This document shows, piece by piece, positions 1 through 16,247 of a stretch of 22,343 nt of DNA (the first letter of the stretch is position 1; each line of letters opens with the position of its first letter). The notes beneath the pieces are model-generated. The model did no database searches and was not told the DNA's origin. It saw nothing but the letters and a program-made list of their open reading frames with translations. A program made the translations under genes and the position numbers. Source of the stretch: a virus; the IMG/VR virus record IMGVR_UViG_3300020424_000313, positions 1-22,343 of that record; one strand, written 5' to 3'.

Positions 1-392
1 TAGAAACATTAACTGATAATTCTTATTGTTACGAAATAGATTATGGTGGTTATGTAACAGAGTGGCGAGAGAGGTCAACAAACTATGAACTATCTTCTCA
101 TAAATCATCAATAACTTCTTTACAAGATGATACGATTTTAATTTGTTGCTTACAAGAAGATTATGGCTATAAATTTTATAATGTGGATATACAGCCTAAT
201 CAGTCAATCGAAACAAATAAAATTGGTGATACAACTTATTTGTTAGTTGGTGAAGAGTGTGAAGTAACTGTACCTGCTACAAATAAAACACATACTTTTA
301 ATCAATACGATTGTAAAAAATTAACAAGCAATAATTGTAGTATAAAAAACATAAGTGACAATATTTGTCGTGTAGTAATGATATGCAAATAG
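1..392 (+). CDS. 3' end of an unrecognised gene, probably structural (partial)
   Basis: An open frame enters from the left edge (first whole codon at base 3) and ends at TAG 390-392, giving the last 129 residues of a longer protein. An in-frame GTG at 183 exists, but the frame is open across the whole upstream stretch, so it is more likely internal. The piece is rich in Thr, Asn, Tyr and Cys, with eight or more cysteines and alternating polar/hydrophobic segments, as in a beta-rich domain. I recognise no family. It sits just upstream of a run of virion genes, so a tail or adsorption protein is a reasonable guess from position only. Its 3' end overlaps the next gene by 10 bases. Confidence 0.7.
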   Translation, partial: ETLTDNSYCYEIDYGGYVTEWRERSTNYELSSHKSSITSLQDDTILICCLQEDYGYKFYNVDIQPNQSIETNKIGDTTYLLVGEECEVTVPATNKTHTFNQYDCKKLTSNNCSIKNISDNICRVVMICK

Positions 393-1132
393 TAAAAGGT
401 ATAAAGTTTTTAAAAGCTTATGCTTCAGGTAAAAGTCATATTAATGCAGATTTAAATTTAATTTTAACTATGGTTAATGACTTAGATAAAAATTGTGATA
501 AAAAATTAAAAGAAAAATTTAATAAAAATAAATATTCTAAAACTTTTTATAAACAAGAAGATTTAAAAACAACAGTTTTAAAAAATAAATATAAGAAAGG
601 TACTTTAGGACAAGAATTAAAAACTTTTTGGGAAAATAATACAGATGATTTATTTCAAAAAAACTTTGATATATCTCAAACTAAAGGTAAAAGAAATATA
701 ACTTTTATGAAAGGATTGCTAAACGAACATGATTTAATACATTGTGTAAATAAATTAGACTCAACTCCTTTAGCAGAAGTTTCTGTTTTAGCATTTACTA
801 TTGCCAAAGGATTTCGTTGGAGTTTTTTTTATATTCTTTTAGCTAGTGTTTTTATGTCTTTTAAAAATTCTTTTGGTAAAAAAAGTATAAAAGGTAGTTT
901 ATTTTTTAAAATTAAATATATGCCTTTTATAAGTGTTATTAGATTAATTAAAGAAGGTTATATGAATGGTAAAAAAACACCATGGTTTATGACTGTTGAT
1001 TGGCACAGCTATTTAGATACACCAATGGTTAAAGTAAGAAAAGAATTACAAATACAAAACTTTCCTGTTTGGGAAGACATAAAACCAAATTGGTATAAAT
1101 TGTTAAAATTTTATAAATTAAATACGGTATAA
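383..1132 (+). CDS. coq4: Coq4-like ubiquinone biosynthesis protein (auxiliary metabolic gene)
   Basis: The 249-residue product carries HDLIH at residues 116-120 and Glu132, exactly the HDxxH-(x11)-E motif that defines the Coq4 family and its metal site. The motif is followed by AEVSVLAFTIAKG, like the conserved Coq4 helix. Near the C-terminus, Trp207 and a PMVKVRKEL stretch (214-222) match the family's 'W..LL..PL..VR.EL' ending. Length is normal for Coq4 (about 220-270 aa), so the protein looks complete. In eukaryotes Coq4 belongs to the coenzyme Q synthesis complex and has been assigned to oxidative decarboxylation at ring carbon C1. Here it would act on the host membrane quinone pathway. 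A TTG at 365 could extend it by six residues; I prefer ATG 383. No strong ribosome binding site is visible, and the start overlaps the upstream gene, so coupling is likely. Family call is firm; activity in the host is inferred. Confidence 0.82.
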   Translation: MQIVKGIKFLKAYASGKSHINADLNLILTMVNDLDKNCDKKLKEKFNKNKYSKTFYKQEDLKTTVLKNKYKKGTLGQELKTFWENNTDDLFQKNFDISQTKGKRNITFMKGLLNEHDLIHCVNKLDSTPLAEVSVLAFTIAKGFRWSFFYILLASVFMSFKNSFGKKSIKGSLFFKIKYMPFISVIRLIKEGYMNGKKTPWFMTVDWHSYLDTPMVKVRKELQIQNFPVWEDIKPNWYKLLKFYKLNTV

Positions 1133-5287: not shown

Positions 5288-7309
5288 ATGTCAGAAGAAA
5301 TGTATGGTGATGGCGGTGTTGATTATGCCGAAAAAATATTTGCTGAACAGAGAGAACGTAATCGTGTAGAAGCTAAGAAACAGGAGGACTTTGCTAAAAA
5401 GTTACAATTATTTGACATTGGACTTAGAGGTGTTAATTTTCTTATAAATCAAAGAGCAGATAATTTAGAAGCTAAACAAATTCCAGCTCTTACTGCCTAT
5501 AGAAATACTTTAGAAACTTTAAACAAAACTAAAGACACTTTAACTAAATACAAAAATTCTCCTAATAAATCTAGTTATATATCAGATTATATTTACAATA
5601 ATTCTATTAATAATATATTAAGCACATATAATTATTTAGATGAAAAAGATGTGCAAAGAGAAGTTAGAAATTATGCTAACAATCAAGCTAAAATATTGGA
5701 GCCAGAGTTTGACCGAATGTATGAAGAATTATCTGATATTCCAGACTTTGAAACTTTTCAAAATCAATATGCAAAATATGCTAAAAGACAAACTCCAAGA
5801 AATTTATTTTCTTTAACAGCCAAAGCATTAAAAAATTTATTTAAATCAGAAACTGCTAATAGTTTAAAAGTTAAATCAGAAAGAGCTAAAGATGCAATAT
5901 TTAATACTGATTTATTTAACAATATACAAGGAGCTAAAAAAGCAGTAGAAGAATTTTATGATAAAGGATTTAATGTTACTGATATGATTACTAATATTGA
6001 AAATGCTGTAAACCAAGGAACTATTGCAGGTAAAAAAATTGATGAATTTACAAAAGATAAAATATCAGTGGGTATTGGTCCAAATGGTGAAACTTTAACT
6101 GAAACAGTATTTTTAGGTTTAGGATATGACCCTACATCAAAAAAACAAACAGTGCAAATAATAGGAACAGGAATTGTAGGTGTAGATAAATCTACAAAAA
6201 TTACAGTCACTCAAGAAGAAAAAAAACAAGCTACGGCTATATTTTTAGGTCTAATAAAAAACACAACCTCTCCTACAACTGACCAAATAGAAAATTTGCT
6301 TGACGTTGGTTTCACTGGAGTTAGTGAAGATGAAGCAAAAGATACTAGACTGATAATTGGTGATAAAATTCAAAGGATTGCTAAACTAACCAACATATCA
6401 GTAGAGGATGCTGCTCGGTATGTACAAGAAGAATTGTATAAAATATACGAAGATGAAAAAAATACATTATCAATAGAAGAAATTCTTATAAGTATTTCAA
6501 GAGGAATAAAACAACCAACATTGTTCCAAGTAGATGTTACAAATGAAAAATTTAGCTTAGATAAATTTGCAAATTATGCAGAAAGTGCTTATGAGCAAGG
6601 AGGTTCTGAATTGCTTATACGAGAATATCAGGGTGCTAAACAATTAATTGAGAATATGGTAGATGTGCCTGAAGATAGGAAATTAGAACTGTTAGATAAA
6701 TTAAAACAAACATATCAAAGCTATACAAACGTAAATATAGATACAAATCCATCTGAGCTTAACTTGAATAATAATGTTAATGCTAATAATACTGATGATA
6801 ATATTGATGATAATACTGATGAAAATAATGAAGAATTATTTACAAAAGATTCTGAATTAAATGTAGCTGAACCTATTTCTTTAAAAACTTTACAAGAAAA
6901 AAATGCAGTTGCTAGGTTTGCAGCTTTCAATAGGAATTATTTAAAAAACTTTGATGCAGTAGTAAATTCTTTAAATTTAGATGATTTAAGTTTTGAAGAA
7001 TTACAATACTTAAGAAATATATCAGATAAACAATTAGCAATTCATTTAGGATTGCCTTCTGGTTTTGAAATAGAAAGAAGTCCTTTTAGTTTTGATATTA
7101 CTTTAAATAAAGTTGTAGATAAATATATGAAAGAAAATAGGAGTCGTTTCCAACAAGAAATGCAAGAAAAATATCCTGACATGTTTAAAGAAGAAAAATA
7201 TGCTTTTTCAAATAAAACTTACCTAACAGTATCTAGAGACATAACACGTTTAATAAAACAACCAAGTGTTGCATTTTTTCAAAATTTTCAAAATAAATTA
7301 ATAGCTTAA
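5288..7309 (+). CDS. Probable internal virion protein (gp15-like position)
   Basis: A 673-residue, mostly helical, charged protein with Lys/Glu-rich coiled-coil-like segments at about residues 15-160. Around residues 480-520 there is an Asn/Asp-rich linker encoded partly by a 12-base tandem repeat, after which a second helical domain runs to the end. No catalytic motif is visible. Its place directly before the 1347-aa protein and its size match T7 gp15 (747 aa), part of the ejected trans-envelope tube; this is an inference from gene order. A ribosome binding site (AGAGGAT) lies just upstream, within the end of the preceding gene. Confidence 0.68.
   Translation: MSEEMYGDGGVDYAEKIFAEQRERNRVEAKKQEDFAKKLQLFDIGLRGVNFLINQRADNLEAKQIPALTAYRNTLETLNKTKDTLTKYKNSPNKSSYISDYIYNNSINNILSTYNYLDEKDVQREVRNYANNQAKILEPEFDRMYEELSDIPDFETFQNQYAKYAKRQTPRNLFSLTAKALKNLFKSETANSLKVKSERAKDAIFNTDLFNNIQGAKKAVEEFYDKGFNVTDMITNIENAVNQGTIAGKKIDEFTKDKISVGIGPNGETLTETVFLGLGYDPTSKKQTVQIIGTGIVGVDKSTKITVTQEEKKQATAIFLGLIKNTTSPTTDQIENLLDVGFTGVSEDEAKDTRLIIGDKIQRIAKLTNISVEDAARYVQEELYKIYEDEKNTLSIEEILISISRGIKQPTLFQVDVTNEKFSLDKFANYAESAYEQGGSELLIREYQGAKQLIENMVDVPEDRKLELLDKLKQTYQSYTNVNIDTNPSELNLNNNVNANNTDDNIDDNTDENNEELFTKDSELNVAEPISLKTLQEKNAVARFAAFNRNYLKNFDAVVNSLNLDDLSFEELQYLRNISDKQLAIHLGLPSGFEIERSPFSFDITLNKVVDKYMKENRSRFQQEMQEKYPDMFKEEKYAFSNKTYLTVSRDITRLIKQPSVAFFQNFQNKLIA
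6791..6826 (+). repeat. 12-base tandem repeat, three copies
   Basis: Three consecutive 12-mers, ACTGATGATAAT, ATTGATGATAAT and ACTGATGAAAAT, lie in frame inside the 673-aa virion gene and encode TDDN-IDDN-TDEN. They sit in a longer Asn/Asp-rich linker. In-frame units of this kind can gain or lose copies without breaking the gene. Confidence 0.85.
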
Positions 7310-7313
7310 TAAA

Positions 7314-10300
7314 ATGGATAAATTTGACTATAGTAATTATAGTGGTATTTACAGTTCTGATAGTAATTTTACTACTACTAACAGTACGACTCAACAAAAT
7401 ATTAATAAGCAATTAGATTTTAAAAAAAGATATAACAAAGTCACTTTAGATGATTTAGAAAATGACGAAGAATATCAAGAAGTAGCTGAAAGATTTTTAA
7501 CATCAGTTGGAGAAAAATCTAATGACATTTTTGAGTATTTAAGAGATTCAGATTTTAATTTATATTCTGGAATGCGTAGAGCCATGCAAAGTGGCAAATT
7601 TACTGAACAACAAAAACAAGATTATGCTTATCTTCGTTCTAGATTTGATAACGCAGATATGGGAAGTCTTAAACAATACTTTGAATTATTTAAAGATAGT
7701 GCTTTAGATATATCCACTGACCCAACTTTAATAGCTGCTGCTTTCCTTACTCCTATTACTGGAGGTACTACTTTAGCTGCTAGACTAGGATTTACTAAAT
7801 TAGGTTTACAAGCAGCTAAGAATATTACTAAGGCTCAAAAGGCTCAACTTAGAAAAGAAGGTAGAAAACAAACTGTAAAAGCTGCTGGAGTTACAGGTTT
7901 AGAAGCTGGAGCATGGACTGGACTTGACAATCATTTTAGACAAAACACTGAGTTAAATACAGATTTAAGAAACTTATATTCTAAGTCAGAATTAATAGGA
8001 AGTACTGCGTTAGGTTTAACTGCTGGGAGCATACTAGGAGGATTTTTACAAAGAAGAGGTTTAGCTTACGAAAGTGATTTAAGGAGATTATATTCTAATG
8101 ACGAATATAGAGAATTTGTAAAAAGTAATTTATGGTATAATGGTGGTAGATTACTTGATAGAATTAAATCAAGAACTATAGGTAGTGCAACTTCGAGATT
8201 AAATACTTATTCAAAATATTCTCCAGCTGCAAAACTTTTAGGACAAACAATCAAACCAGATTTTTCTCAAAATGTTTTTAAAATTACAGATAAAAGATTA
8301 GGCTATAGTTATGGTGAAGATTTAAATTTTAGAAGGGGAACATATATATCTTTAAGAAATGATGCTTTGATGCCTATATACAAAGATGGTAAAATACTAC
8401 CAGAAGATGAAATAAATGTAATTAGAATACTAAGAGGTGCAGACCCAAATAAATATAGTAAAGCTGTTCAAGAATCTGCAATTAATTATAGAAACTTTTT
8501 TAATGTTATATTAAATGATGCACAAGAGGCAGGATTAAAACCTCATAAAATAGAAAATTATTTTACTCGTTCATGGAATAGAGAAGCCATAGAATCAAAT
8601 CCTGAATTATTTAAACAAAAATTAATTGATGGTAAAGTTGAAATAGGAATGAAAAATGGTAAACCTATTATTGCTTCTAAAGATACTATAACTGAAGTAA
8701 ACGCTGTTATTACTGAAATGTTAAATAAACAAAATGAATTGATGTCTGGTCATGCTCACTTATTAACTCAGTCAAGAACTTTTAAAAATTTAAAAGATAA
8801 TGATTTTGAAGAATTTTTAAATAATAATCTTGTAGAAGTAACAACTGATTATGCTTTATCTAGTGCAAAACGAATCCAAACAGAAAAAACTTTTTTACAA
8901 CCTTTTCAAAGAACTCGTGCAGAAAAATTAAAATACGAACAAAGCTTAGCAAAATCTTCGGGTACAGGTGATGCTCAAAAATTTGATAACAGTAATAGAA
9001 GGGCATTTGAAAATAAATTTATTGACCCTATAGACAAAGAGTTAAGAGCTGCCGGTGTAAAAAAAGGATTAACTAGGTTAGAAAAAAAAAGATTAAAAGA
9101 TTTATATCAATCAGTTACAGGGCAGGTCAAATATTTTGATTCAGGATTTGTACAAGGAGCTTACGATGGGTTAAAATTAGCAAATGCTTTAGCTTATTTA
9201 CCTTTAGCAACTCTTTCATCTTTAACAGAAGTATTTATTCCTTTAACTAAAGTTAAAGTACCTACTTATGCTAAAGGTATTGTGGATGGTTTAAAAGAAA
9301 CAGTTTCGATTACAGGTGAAGAACTAACACAAATTCTTAAAACAAAACATAATTTAACTACAAGTGAAATAAGACAAGAAATGGCAGATGTTTGGATAGC
9401 TGTTGATGAATCAATGTCTGACATGACGAATAGATTAGCTGGAGAAGGTTTTCAAAATAAATTTGCTAAAGGCATAGCTAGAGCTTTCTATAGATTAAAT
9501 CTTCTAACTCCTTGGACCAAAACTATACAATTAGCTTCTTTTTCTTCAGGAAAAGATTTAATTAAAAAAAACTTACAGCAATTAAGCAAATTAAAAAAAG
9601 AAGGTGTAAATATAGATAGCGAAATAGCTCCTTTAAAAGTACAAAAATTAAAGGGAGAATTGTTTGATTTAAATATAGATATTGACGATGGTATCAAATG
9701 GGTTGATTCTGGAGCTAATGTAAACGATAATTTTTATACTAGTGTTAAAAGAGGAGCAGGTAGATTTACTGACACTATAATTTTACCTACCTCTAGAGAA
9801 TCAGGTAGAGTTCCTACTATTATGACTAATCCAAGAGTAGATATTTTTACTCAACTATTAAGGTATCCTACAGCTTTTGGTAATACAGTGTTAAAGAATT
9901 TTGCTAGAGGAGCAATAACAGACCCGACAGCTAATGCTCCTAGATTAGCAGCATTTGGAATTTTAGCTACAAGTGTTGCTCTTGGAACTAACTATTGGAG
10001 AAGCACTGAAAAAAACCAAAGAAGAATGTTTAATGAAGACAATAATCAAAAAACTATAGTACGAGCTCTGCAGCGAGTAGGTTTATTAGGTCCGTTAGAG
10101 TATGGTGTTAGATATACAGACTCTTTAAAAAGTAGAGGTCAAAACCCAATTTCAGCTACTACTGGAATTATTGGTCCGACTGCTTCAGACATAGCTCAAT
10201 TAGTTATGTATGGTAAAGGTTTTGAAAGTTTAGCTAGAAAAACTCCGGGAATAGGTTTACAAAATATTATTGAAAGGTATACTGGTATTAATCCATATAG

Positions 10301-12498: not shown

Positions 12499-12717
12499 CT
12501 ATTTAATATTTAGCTCACTCTGAAAATAATCATGCAAGGTGGCGAGTTTTTTTCGCCCTGCCTTTAGGATAGTTCTAACTGTTTCATTCTCATGATGTAC
12601 CTTAAAAACTTTATCAATATCTTCTTCAGGCAACATGCTAAACTCCGTAACAATTTGATTGTTACTTGTCAACACTACTTTAAAACTTATTAAGTTTGCT
12701 TCTTTTTTTTTAGACAC
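12499..12717 (-). CDS. Small protein of unknown function at the end of the RNR operon
   Basis: About 72 residues from a GTG at 12717. The frame also offers ATG 12723 and TTG 12738, but GGAGG (12724-12728) touches the ATG directly, while it stands an ideal six bases from the GTG, so I choose the GTG. The gene overlaps the end of nrdB by 8 bases and is probably coupled to it. The product is a charged alpha/beta-looking protein with a Lys-rich start and a C-terminal 'RKKLATLHDYF' helix; no family is recognised. It is the last gene of the reverse block. Confidence 0.65.
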   Translation of the reverse strand: MSKKKEANLISFKVVLTSNNQIVTEFSMLPEEDIDKVFKVHHENETVRTILKAGRKKLATLHDYFQSELNIK

Positions 12718-13693
12718 TTTCATCCTCCAATGATGCAAATTGTACTTGGTCTTGTCTTCCTCTCAATCCAGCTTTCATGTAAGAAGTAGCACGACCTTCA
12801 AAAAAGTTTTGGTGTTCTACTCCCATGACCTCATCTAACCAAGGTAAAGGGTTTTCTCTTTGGTCAAAGTTAGTTTTTAATCCTAACTGTAACAATCTTC
12901 TATCTGCTATGTATCTGTTGTAAGCATACATATCTTTTTTAGTTAAACCTTGTATGTCTCCCATACTAAATACTAAATCTAAAAACTTATCTTCAAGCTC
13001 GACCATTTCTCTACAAATATCGTACAGTTCTTTTTTAAAATCATCTGTCCAAATATCTAAGTTCTCTTGAATAAACTCTCTAAATAATTTAGTCATTGCT
13101 TCAACATGCATTGACTCATCTCTGATAGAATAGGTAACTATCTGACCCATGCCTTTCATTTTACCGAACCTTGGAAAGTTTAACAAAATTGCAAAACTAC
13201 TAAACAGTTGTAGTCCTTCAGTAAAAGCTGAATAGACTGCCAAAGTTTTAGCTATAGTTTTCTTATTAGATTTTTTAGGTTTAAAGTCTCCAACATAATC
13301 ATGTTTATCAGACATCTCTTCATACTCAGCAAAAGCTTTGTATTCAATCTCAGGCATACCTACCGTATCTAACAATAAACTATAAGCATCTTGATGGATT
13401 GATTCCATATTAGCAAACGAAGACATCATCATTCGTGCCTCTGGTTTTTTAAAGATAGGCATGTACTTATCTATATATCCTGCACCAACATCTACATCTG
13501 ATTGAGTAAACAATCTAAATATCTGAGTTAGTAAATGTCTTTCTTTTTCTGATACATCTTGCCAGTCTTTAACATCTGTATGTAAAGGCACGGACTCCGG
13601 CATCCAGTGCATTTGGTTTTGTAACTTATAATAATCATACATCCATGGGTAATCAAATGGTTTGTAGTGGTCTCTAGTTTTTAATAAGCTCAT
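12710..13693 (-). CDS. nrdB: Class I ribonucleotide reductase, small (radical-generating) subunit
   Basis: A 327-residue NrdB that partners the NrdA encoded upstream in the same operon to reduce ribonucleoside diphosphates to dNDPs for phage DNA synthesis. All metal ligands expected for class I are visible: Asp66, Glu97-x-x-His100, Glu159, and Glu193-x-x-His196 (in DESMH). The spacing from Asp66 to Glu97 (31) equals that in E. coli. Tyr104, four residues after His100, stands at the radical tyrosine position (E. coli Tyr122), so this is a tyrosyl-radical type rather than a Phe-substituted one. The ATG follows AGAGGA, which lies in the end of the 69-aa gene. The protein looks full length. Confidence 0.95.
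   Translation of the reverse strand: MSLLKTRDHYKPFDYPWMYDYYKLQNQMHWMPESVPLHTDVKDWQDVSEKERHLLTQIFRLFTQSDVDVGAGYIDKYMPIFKKPEARMMMSSFANMESIHQDAYSLLLDTVGMPEIEYKAFAEYEEMSDKHDYVGDFKPKKSNKKTIAKTLAVYSAFTEGLQLFSSFAILLNFPRFGKMKGMGQIVTYSIRDESMHVEAMTKLFREFIQENLDIWTDDFKKELYDICREMVELEDKFLDLVFSMGDIQGLTKKDMYAYNRYIADRRLLQLGLKTNFDQRENPLPWLDEVMGVEHQNFFEGRATSYMKAGLRGRQDQVQFASLEDESV
12724..12728 (-). promoter_or_regulatory. Ribosome binding site inside the end of nrdB
   Basis: GGAGG read on the minus strand, within the last codons of nrdB and six bases before the GTG at 12717. It decides the start of the downstream small gene. Confidence 0.6.
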
Positions 13694-13903
13694 TTAAAAA
13701 TCCTCTTTTAACATAGTTAACTTTTCATCAGCGGTAACATACTGTTCCATAAGTTTGTCCATTGACTCCACAACATTTGGATGTTCAGCGACTCCAACTC
13801 TATTACTAAAATATATTTCAAGATTAGCTTTTGCTTCTGCCTTGTCAGCAGTATATTTTGTTTCTAAAGCTTTGAACAATAAAGCTCCCGAATATTTAGT
13901 CAT
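13694..13903 (-). CDS. Small acidic protein between cytochrome c and nrdB
   Basis: A 69-residue soluble protein, helical, with a central 'NRVGVAEHPN' turn followed by an acidic helix. The type looks familiar from marine phage RNR operons, but no function is known to me. It starts 15 bases after the cytochrome gene with a good AGGAG ribosome binding site and abuts nrdB directly: its last codons contain the nrdB ribosome binding site. It may be an RNR accessory protein; this rests only on position. Confidence 0.72.
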   Translation of the reverse strand: MTKYSGALLFKALETKYTADKAEAKANLEIYFSNRVGVAEHPNVVESMDKLMEQYVTADEKLTMLKEDF

Positions 13904-13918
13904 AATGTTTTTCTCCTG

Positions 13919-14353
13919 TTATTTAAAAGTATTGATGTAAGCTTGTAAATTTTCCATGTCTTCAGTAGAAAGATTAGCAGCCTGACCCCACATCAAGGCA
14001 GACTGCTCACCTCTAGTCTCTCCGTTTTTATATTGCATTAGCATTTCTACAATAGAAGTACTGCCAACAAGCTTTGGTCCAATACCTCCTTCTCCAGCTT
14101 GACCGTGACACATAGCACAATTCACATAAACTTTACTACCCATTTCAGCTGGGTCAGCTTCTAACATAGCTACTCGTTTCATTTCTAGTTGCTCTAAGAA
14201 TGTTCCATGTTTTAATGTATACTCTTCGTAACATTCACCAAAACAAGAATGAACATCATCATAACCTTTGTATGGTGTTGATTCATAAGCAAATGCAATT
14301 ATAGCTATAATTCCTACAATTCCAAGTAATATTGGAAAAATTATTTCTTTCAT
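13919..14353 (-). CDS. Membrane-anchored class I cytochrome c (auxiliary metabolic gene)
   Basis: A 144-residue protein with an N-terminal hydrophobic anchor (about 4-23) that would export and tether it to the periplasmic face. It has one heme-attachment site, CAMCH at 79-83, followed by GQAGEGGIGPKLVG as in small class I cytochromes. The C-terminal helix LSTEDMENLQAYI is typical, and Met121 is the best sixth-ligand candidate. Two further cysteines, 37 and 41 (CFGEC), lie between anchor and heme domain. The likely job is electron transfer near the terminal oxidase, with heme attached by the host maturation system. Start: ATG 14353, one base after the nrdA stop, with GAGGG five bases upstream. 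A longer frame to 14383 would overlap nrdA and put ten polar residues before the anchor. Heme site is certain; physiological partner unknown. Confidence 0.9.
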   Translation of the reverse strand: MKEIIFPILLGIVGIIAIIAFAYESTPYKGYDDVHSCFGECYEEYTLKHGTFLEQLEMKRVAMLEADPAEMGSKVYVNCAMCHGQAGEGGIGPKLVGSTSIVEMLMQYKNGETRGEQSALMWGQAANLSTEDMENLQAYINTFK

Positions 14354-14354
14354 A

Positions 14355-16247
14355 TCATCCCTCGCATGAGATACATTCCACATCTTCTAAATTAATTCGT
14401 GGAATTTTAGTGTTAACATTCTCTACATTTCTAGCTGCATTTGTTCTAAAATAATATAGAGATTTAAGTTTGTGCATACCATACCAATGAACATCACTAA
14501 CGTATTGCATGTAAGTATCATGTACTTCTTGGCTCTCGGTAGCACTTGGTAAAGTGAAAAATAAATTTACTGACTGAGCTTGACAAATAAACTCTTGTCT
14601 TTTATAAGCATGTTCCACTAACCAAATCTGATTTATTTCGTTTGCTGTTTTAAATAATTCTTTTTCTTCTTCATTTAAAATATCTATGTTCTTTACTGAA
14701 CCTTCATTACTAGCAATGTCTTTCCAAATCTTATCAAGTTCCTCTCCTTTTAATCCTTTACTTCTTAAAACTTTTTCCAAGTATTTATTTTTTACTTGAT
14801 AACTGCCTGATAAAGTTTTATGAGTAAAGACATTTGCCCTATAAGGTTCTATTGAGGGAGATGTGCCAGAACATATAATGCTGCTACTAGCATTAGGAGC
14901 AACGGCAAGGAGATGAGCATTACGCATCCCAGAACCAGATACATCAGGTGCTTCACCACGAATATCAGCAAGTTCCTCACTAGCTTTAGTAGCTTTCTTT
15001 TTAATATATTTAAATGCTTGATAATTAAATCCCGTAGCTTGGAGTCCTTCAAAAGGTATGCCTTTACTTTGTAAATAAGCATGAAAACCCATTGCTCCAA
15101 GACCAAGAGACCTTTCACGATAAGCTGAGTAAGCTGCTTTTGCAAATCCTTCTTTACCTTCTTTAATGTATTTAATAAATCTTTTATAATTAGCATTATA
15201 CTCTCCAAGTTGTTCTGTGTCAATAGCATTGTCAATAAAATGTTGTAAAACATTATCTAACATAGTTATTAAATCAGAAATAAATAATGGTTCCTCTGAC
15301 CATATATCATAGTGTTCTAGATTAACACTAGATAAACAACATACAGCAGTACGTTCTTCATTAGTTACTAGAGTTATTTCGGAACAAAGATTACTTTGTT
15401 TAATTTGTAATCCTAAATCTTTTTGTCCTTGCGGTAATGCTTCATTACAAGTGTCTATATTAATCATGTAAGGTTCACCTGTCTCAGCTCTAGCATTTAA
15501 TATCTGCCACCATAAAGAACGAGCATTGACTGTTTTACAAGCTTCATTCGTTTTAGGGTCTATCAATCTAAAGTCAGCATCTTCTTCTACTGCATTTAGA
15601 AAATCATTAGTGATGTTTATACCATTATGTAAATTTAAATTCTTTCTATTTATATCTCCACCGGATTCTTTTCTCATGTTTATAAACTCTTCAATCTCCG
15701 GATGTGATATATCCATATAAGCAGCATAGCTACCTCGTCTAGTGACACCTTGATTAAAGGCTAACATTTGTGAATCTACTACATGGATGAATGGAATTGT
15801 ACCAGTAGAACGACTGCCTGAAGAAGTAGAAATACCGTTACTCCTAATATCTCCCCAATATCCACCAATGCCTCCACCAGAACTTGCCAACCATATATTC
15901 TCGTCATAGTGAGCAGATAAACCAGTGCGACTGTCAGGTACGTAATTGAGGAAACAGCTAATAGGTAGCCCACGAGTGGTTCCCCCGTTACTAAGTATAG
16001 GAGTGCTAAACATGAACCAACCATCGGAACAGTAGTTATAAAGCCTTTGAGCAAGTCCGAAGTCAGTAGTTTGTTTGTAAGTAGCTGCAAATACTGCAGC
16101 CCTAGCAAAAGATTCTTGTGCATGTGTTTCATCCTCCCAAAAATATCTATCTTTTAATGTATCTAAACTAAACTTATCTAGATTTTTTTCTTTATCATAA
16201 TCTATAACAATACCTAAGTAAGGTTTTTTACCTATTTTATCTTCCAT
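14355..16247 (-). CDS. nrdA: Class I ribonucleotide reductase, large (catalytic) subunit
   Basis: A 630-residue NrdA. Catalytic residues are visible: Cys98 (GLPISCF), Asn286-x-Cys288-x-Glu290 (SNLCSE) and Cys303 (AVCCL), equivalent to E. coli C225, N437/C439/E441 and C462. The radical-transfer tyrosine pair is Tyr598-Tyr599 (KSLYYFRT), and the C-terminal redox pair is Cys625/Cys628 (CISC). The enzyme is about 130 residues shorter than E. coli NrdA and begins near the catalytic barrel, so the N-terminal ATP cone that allows dATP shut-off appears absent. The ATG shares one base with the stop of the DUF3310 gene (TGATG). The cytochrome c gene follows after one base. Confidence 0.95.
   Translation of the reverse strand: MEDKIGKKPYLGIVIDYDKEKNLDKFSLDTLKDRYFWEDETHAQESFARAAVFAATYKQTTDFGLAQRLYNYCSDGWFMFSTPILSNGGTTRGLPISCFLNYVPDSRTGLSAHYDENIWLASSGGGIGGYWGDIRSNGISTSSGSRSTGTIPFIHVVDSQMLAFNQGVTRRGSYAAYMDISHPEIEEFINMRKESGGDINRKNLNLHNGINITNDFLNAVEEDADFRLIDPKTNEACKTVNARSLWWQILNARAETGEPYMINIDTCNEALPQGQKDLGLQIKQSNLCSEITLVTNEERTAVCCLSSVNLEHYDIWSEEPLFISDLITMLDNVLQHFIDNAIDTEQLGEYNANYKRFIKYIKEGKEGFAKAAYSAYRERSLGLGAMGFHAYLQSKGIPFEGLQATGFNYQAFKYIKKKATKASEELADIRGEAPDVSGSGMRNAHLLAVAPNASSSIICSGTSPSIEPYRANVFTHKTLSGSYQVKNKYLEKVLRSKGLKGEELDKIWKDIASNEGSVKNIDILNEEEKELFKTANEINQIWLVEHAYKRQEFICQAQSVNLFFTLPSATESQEVHDTYMQYVSDVHWYGMHKLKSLYYFRTNAARNVENVNTKIPRINLEDVECISCEG

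Follow-up and report, generated by a model that had tools for sequence, protein, structure and literature searches.

A gene for a predicted membrane-anchored class I cytochrome c between nrdA and nrdB of an uncultivated marine virus, and its association with an alternative oxidase in other phages

The cytochrome gene and its protein product

The window studied here is the whole stretch of 22,343 nucleotides of viral DNA that makes up positions 1 to 22,343 of the IMG/VR record IMGVR_UViG_3300020424_000313. On its minus strand lies nrdA, encoding the large subunit of a class I ribonucleotide reductase (14355..16247; 630 amino acids; PF02867, E 3e-103; phrog_84). It is followed by a gene for a membrane-anchored class I monohaem cytochrome c of 144 amino acids (13919..14353), recognized from the list of open reading frames, Pfam and sequence motifs, then by a gene for a 69-amino-acid phrog_1811 protein with no assigned function (13694..13903; PHROG match) and by nrdB, encoding the small subunit (12710..13693; 327 amino acids; PF00268, E 1e-75). 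An earlier note on this DNA had placed a cytochrome c gene between nrdA and nrdB at exactly these coordinates; its strand is minus, and the phrog_1811 gene also sits before nrdB. The reading frame runs from the ATG at 14353-14351 to the stop codon at 13921-13919. A single base separates this ATG from the stop codon of nrdA, which lies directly upstream, and a GAGGG is found 5 bases upstream of the ATG. An alternative in-frame start at 14383, giving 154 amino acids, is absent in relatives such as L015-L019, so that 14353 is the likely start. The G+C content of the gene (35.4%, and 20.7% at third positions) matches that of nrdA (34.1% and 19.7%), which points to a gene adapted to the genome of this virus.

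The protein is recognized by two Pfam models, PF00034 (29.6 bits, cut-off 21.3) and PF13442 (28.2 bits, cut-off 27.0), and can be divided into an anchor (residues 2-25), a linker (26-65) and a haem domain (66-144). The motifs that had been read from it are present: the CAMCH haem site (C79-A-M-C82-H83), one hydrophobic N-terminal segment predicted to be a membrane anchor, and the Met121 ligand. Residues 4-22, with a mean hydropathy of 2.97, are the sole candidate membrane segment, which may instead be a cleaved signal peptide. C79, C82, H83 and M121 are invariant in 42 phage and cellular sequences. All of the 113 phage copies examined keep CxxCHG, a later Met-Trp and a hydrophobic N-terminus, and 112 of the 113 also keep a CxGxC or CxDxC. 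In this virus the latter motif is CxGxCY, lies in the linker at 37-42 (C37, G39, C41, Y42) and is common to phage and cellular relatives. A disulfide between its cysteines is a reasonable guess; a second c-type haem site is ruled out, as no histidine follows the second cysteine.

An AlphaFold model built from 42 phage and cellular relatives (mean pLDDT 85.9; a poor model from 14 close sequences only, with pLDDT 60.7, was set aside) presents residues 66-144 as the all-helical fold of a monohaem class I cytochrome c. Foldseek matched it to 1cno, 2zzs and 4o1w with target TM-scores of 0.79-0.84 and rmsd of 1.5-2.5 A. The nearest folds in the PDB are cytochromes c552 and c554 (1cno, 2zzs, 4o1w, 8yts), in agreement with the sequence search. 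The fold and the haem and methionine ligation of the class I cytochromes c552/c554/c553 of P. nautica (1cno), Vibrio (2zzs) and Colwellia (4o1w) match this domain; these proteins, however, are soluble and periplasmic, whereas the phage protein adds an anchor and the CxGxCY linker. The cytochromes cy (CycM) of alphaproteobacteria also consist of an N-terminal anchor, a linker and a cytochrome c domain. The phage protein, with one predicted N-terminal anchor, a linker and a single cytochrome c domain, has a similar general layout and would act alike as a tethered shuttle. The likeness is one of layout; by sequence the phage family is nearer to c552/c554/c4 types, and it has conserved cysteines in its linker. 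Subunit III of cbb3 oxidase (CcoP) is ruled out by length (144 amino acids against about 300) and by the single CxxCH of a protein that would have to be diheme; neither ccoN nor ccoO was seen beside the cytochrome in the loci examined. The cytochrome gave no match in a structure search of BFVD and is without any PHROG assignment.

The gene is under purifying selection: dN/dS between the cytochrome of this virus and those of 16 relatives is 0.10-0.33, and the median over 108 pairs is 0.23. It is almost certain that an anchored class I cytochrome c is being kept by selection, and its motifs predict a functional, exported protein.

Distribution and descent of the phage cytochrome family

The IMG/VR scans found 27 contigs with a single protein as query and 114 with an alignment, of which the best 80 were taken. 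Together with loci obtained through other queries, the family is present on at least 106 distinct viral contigs, and these counts are lower bounds and not frequencies. The earlier note described respiratory cytochromes as rare in phages, apart from carriers linked to photosynthesis. This holds for described phages, as tblastn against the 50,697 phage records of INPHARED gave no match, but not for uncultivated viruses, given the contigs above. It had also proposed a viral database search for the order nrdA-cytochrome-nrdB, which is found in at least 38 other viral contigs, while three further contigs end after nrdA-cytochrome. Both chance and an assembly chimera are ruled out by this shared order.

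The gene is not confined to this position. It lies behind an A-family DNA polymerase in L023, L025-28, L031 and L036, whose polymerases share about 45% identity with the enzymes of Proteus phages some 100 kb in size, and it has quite different neighbours in four contigs of 99-131 kb (L020, L052, L057, L063). The order nrdA-cytochrome-nrdB is also found in a separate group (L067-070), whose cytochrome shares only about 50% identity. Elsewhere (L071-L075, L077, L079-L082) the cytochrome comes directly after a peroxiredoxin-family gene (PF00578) and before an SbcD-like gene. Some marker proteins of the large phages had no match among known phages. The contigs share one phage-borne cytochrome family that occurs in several types of phage, and what is found agrees with an auxiliary gene of phage electron transport: it lies in phage genomes, is under purifying selection and occurs in several phage lineages. 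Although its nrdB is 87% identical, the contig L241 carries in the nrdA/nrdB slot a member of this cytochrome family that is far more divergent, which suggests replacement of the cytochrome. A small transmembrane protein, c21, is often found near the cytochrome (L006:357-494, L028:6524-6733, L052:10625-10837), mostly with a conserved YTEGDNT-like tail at its end; it had no Pfam match, and the identification as CcoQ that was suspected by eye received no support from Pfam.

In the tree of the cytochromes (99 rows and few columns, with bootstrap not settled) the copy of this virus groups with other phage copies in a clade of 39 members (100/98), to which Litorivicinaceae are the sister group (92/72). 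Most lineages with the cytochrome directly beside an alternative oxidase belong to another phage clade, of 24 members, and L067-L070 stand apart. The comparison with host cytochromes by phylogeny, also proposed earlier, thus points to the gammaproteobacterial Litorivicinaceae and Halieaceae as cellular relatives. Litorivicinaceae (OM252) and Halieaceae were the only groups to yield full-length cellular relatives with CxGxCY. Such relatives occur in 21 of 294 genomes of the order of these families, and among 398 genomes taken phylum-wide only in the genome used as query. These proteins are about 36-47% identical to that of the phage and are alike in anchor, motif and haem domain. They differ in being chromosomal and solitary, with no assigned function, and in G+C content, which is about 45-61% around these genes and about 31-39% in the phages. 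In the three cellular loci examined the neighbours were unrelated and no known respiratory gene lay beside the cytochrome. In L115, a contig of a Litoricola metagenome-assembled genome, the cytochrome frame seems broken, which may reflect a decayed copy or sequencing errors.

The backbone of the virus is nearest to Pelagibacter phage HTVC115P (identities of 72.8% for nrdB, 60% for nrdA, 51% for the polymerase and 48% for the primase). The order of replication genes is generally the same and both switch strand after nrdAB, but in HTVC115P nrdA and nrdB are adjacent, without a cytochrome gene. The G+C content of this virus, 31.7%, would fit a SAR11 host.

The gap between nrdA and nrdB is an insertion hotspot. 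In most of 78 other contigs with a related nrdB it holds some small unrelated gene (phrog_1811-like, a putative zinc-ribbon or other unrelated reading frames), and the cytochrome is present in only two of them; relatives free of the cytochrome often have small phrog_1811-like genes there. The position alone is thus weak evidence for a coupling to dNTP synthesis. The proposal that it ties expression of the cytochrome to dNTP synthesis is right in that the gene lies inside the nrd operon, but is weakened by a gap that accepts many unrelated genes.

Alternative oxidase and other respiration-linked neighbours

A recurrent neighbour of the cytochrome in other phages was identified as an alternative oxidase (AOX; PF01786, E 1e-70). 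AOX takes electrons from quinol to oxygen by a route that leaves out bc1 and cytochrome c. Nearly all of 98 phage copies retain the iron-ligand motifs, and their identity to the AOX of Litorivicinaceae is about 60%. AOX is found on 38 of the at least 106 cytochrome contigs, no more than 3 kb from the cytochrome in 36 of them, and abuts it in 14 with frames overlapping or touching; both orders are seen. A whole-record search found it in 12 of 49 cytochrome carriers. Conversely, a scan for AOX matched 167 viral contigs, and the cytochrome is present in 29 of the best 80 of these against 2 of the 78 nrdB loci (Fisher P 3e-8, a value that ignores kinship among contigs). No AOX was found in the 78 contigs taken with the nrdB of this virus, nor in the available sequence of its own lineage, a 46-kb relative included.

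In L210-212, L214 and L215 the gene between nrdA and nrdB is AOX, which overlaps nrdA and is followed by a gene for a glutaredoxin-nrdB fusion; in L212 nrdA spans 6223-8013 and AOX 7992-8573. The presence in the nrdA/nrdB slot of AOX as well as of the cytochrome, the latter in two different phage groups, makes a link with dNTP synthesis more plausible. The only phage record with a relative of this AOX is that of Phage C48C1 (OQ984149.1, a 156-kb Kyanoviridae record), where a gene at 26243-26818, annotated as a hypothetical protein, has a product that shares 61% identity with the phage AOX along 95% of its length. The plastoquinol terminal oxidase (PTOX) of cyanophages did not match the phage AOX in the search of phage records.

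Small membrane proteins, c9 or c9-like, are found after the cytochrome or AOX (L021:3333-3557, L023:1027-1317, L175:9007-9279, L180:8646-8888). They have no Pfam match and are a possible third member of the cassette. In the window a Coq4-like protein, of a family of ubiquinone biosynthesis, is encoded at 365..1132 on the plus strand (PF05019, 25.5 bits, cut-off 22.9). Its HDxxH-x11-E motif is intact and invariant in 10 phage sequences, and it is possibly a second respiration-linked gene of this virus. Close relatives are present on ten other viral contigs, and a distant Coq4-like gene lies within about 1 kb of the cytochrome-AOX pair in L155-L159. As a constant partner of the cytochrome Coq4 was rejected, PF05019 being found in none of 49 cytochrome-bearing records. 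With this result, and with the gene lying beside peptidase and holin genes in several phages, there is little to connect it with the cytochrome.

Possible role during infection

The cytochrome probably acts as a respiratory shuttle from bc1 to a terminal oxidase of the host, a reading to which we give a probability of about 0.6. It would be made along with ribonucleotide reductase, early in infection, receive its haem from the host Ccm system and be tethered by its N-terminal helix on the periplasmic face of the inner membrane. There it would carry single electrons from host cytochrome bc1 to a host haem-copper oxidase. Proton pumping, ATP supply and the reoxidation of quinol and NADH could thereby be kept going during phage dNTP and DNA synthesis, while host proteins would no longer be renewed. 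In the phages that pair it with AOX, passing electrons from quinol to oxygen, both branches of the chain would be adjustable. Haem loading, topology and timing of expression are here inferred, as are the electron partners, the host and the benefit. Several points go against the shuttle. Electrons taken up by AOX do not pass through bc1 or cytochrome c, so that the pairing alone defines no single path, and the backbone resembles a Pelagibacter phage whereas the cytochrome has its cellular relatives among gammaproteobacteria. Further points are the lack of a known respiratory gene beside the cytochrome in the cellular loci examined, the lack of AOX in the available sequence of the lineage of this virus, and the hotspot character of the nrdA/nrdB gap. 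More tentatively, the cytochrome, AOX, the small membrane partner and sometimes the Coq4-like protein can be seen as a mobile module of marine phages, probably of heterotrophs, which may lodge time and again within or next to the nrd genes, rebuild the host respiratory chain and couple dNTP synthesis with oxygen use.

The same neighbours could be explained by a dedicated phage assembly of cytochrome, AOX and small membrane protein, in which the cytochrome would bind to AOX or to another phage-altered quinol-oxidising assembly, or trade electrons with it, and would not serve the route from host bc1 to the oxidase. Frames that overlap or touch (L031, L155-159, L173, L175, L179-181, L185, L078), in both orders, speak for it, together with the c9 or c9-like transmembrane protein that then follows in L021, L023-28, L175 and L180. 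We consider it rather unlikely, because most cytochrome contigs, including those of the lineage of this virus, show no AOX and the cytochrome must work alone there; to our knowledge no cytochrome-c-dependent AOX has been described. Somewhat less likely still is a periplasmic redox partner against peroxide and reactive oxygen, for example a donor to cytochrome c peroxidase, that protects the cell and the oxygen-dependent ribonucleotide reductase. The peroxiredoxin gene beside the cytochrome would agree with this, as would AOX, a known brake on superoxide formation. However, that neighbour is limited to one phage group, peroxiredoxin is cytoplasmic and needs no cytochrome c, and no gene for cytochrome c peroxidase was seen beside the cytochrome.

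Small membrane-anchored periplasmic proteins are typical of superinfection exclusion, and a role in exclusion or in the timing of membrane collapse, with haem merely stabilising the fold, might be imagined; the strict conservation of the methionine ligand and haem site and the linkage to AOX point instead to electron transfer and make it improbable. The permissive nature of the nrdA/nrdB gap, which takes many unrelated small genes, would also suit a hitchhiker with no selected role. This idea is largely refuted by purifying selection, by haem sites kept in 113 of 113 copies, by the occurrence of family members at several further places in phage genomes and by the recurrent pairing with AOX. 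The least probable explanation is a direct donation of electrons to the surrounding ribonucleotide reductase, to which only the place of the gene between nrdA and nrdB would lead. It was rejected on compartment grounds, as haem attachment by Ccm and the anchor would put the cytochrome outside the cytoplasm, away from NrdAB. Moreover, class I ribonucleotide reductases rely on thioredoxin or glutaredoxin. A glutaredoxin gene is present in several of these phages and is fused to nrdB in L212.

By analogy, the nearest precedent in logic for the respiratory shuttle and its pairing with AOX is given by plastocyanin and PTOX of cyanophages, found in 70 and 35 of 153 genomes, respectively, with plastocyanin proposed to feed cytochrome oxidase (PMC10452541). 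There petE and ptoX likewise provide a one-electron carrier after the bc complex and a di-iron quinol oxidase, which would sustain electron flow during infection (PMC10452541, PMC7472177). The phages described here differ in having an anchored haem carrier, AOX, a link with nrd genes and hosts that are probably non-photosynthetic bacteria. A respiratory gene was claimed earlier for marine viruses from sequences of cbb3-type oxidase subunit I in Indian Ocean viromes (PMC3474794), which is another protein and was without the genomic context given here.

The control of photosynthetic electron flow by phages of cyanobacteria is well known. In the open-access literature searched, no description was found of such a phage cytochrome c, of AOX in heterotroph phages, or of phages that control respiration in a comparable way in marine bacteria without photosynthesis. 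Taken together, these results suggest that many uncultivated marine viruses of bacteria, this one included, that have an anchored cytochrome c, often near dNTP genes and in some cases near a second respiration gene, take part in the respiration of their hosts. If these phages carry both cytochrome c and AOX, respiration may be altered in infected cells, with consequences for how oxygen and carbon are budgeted in the surface ocean. The system also offers a direct way to test how the energy supply is maintained by a phage that is shutting its host down.
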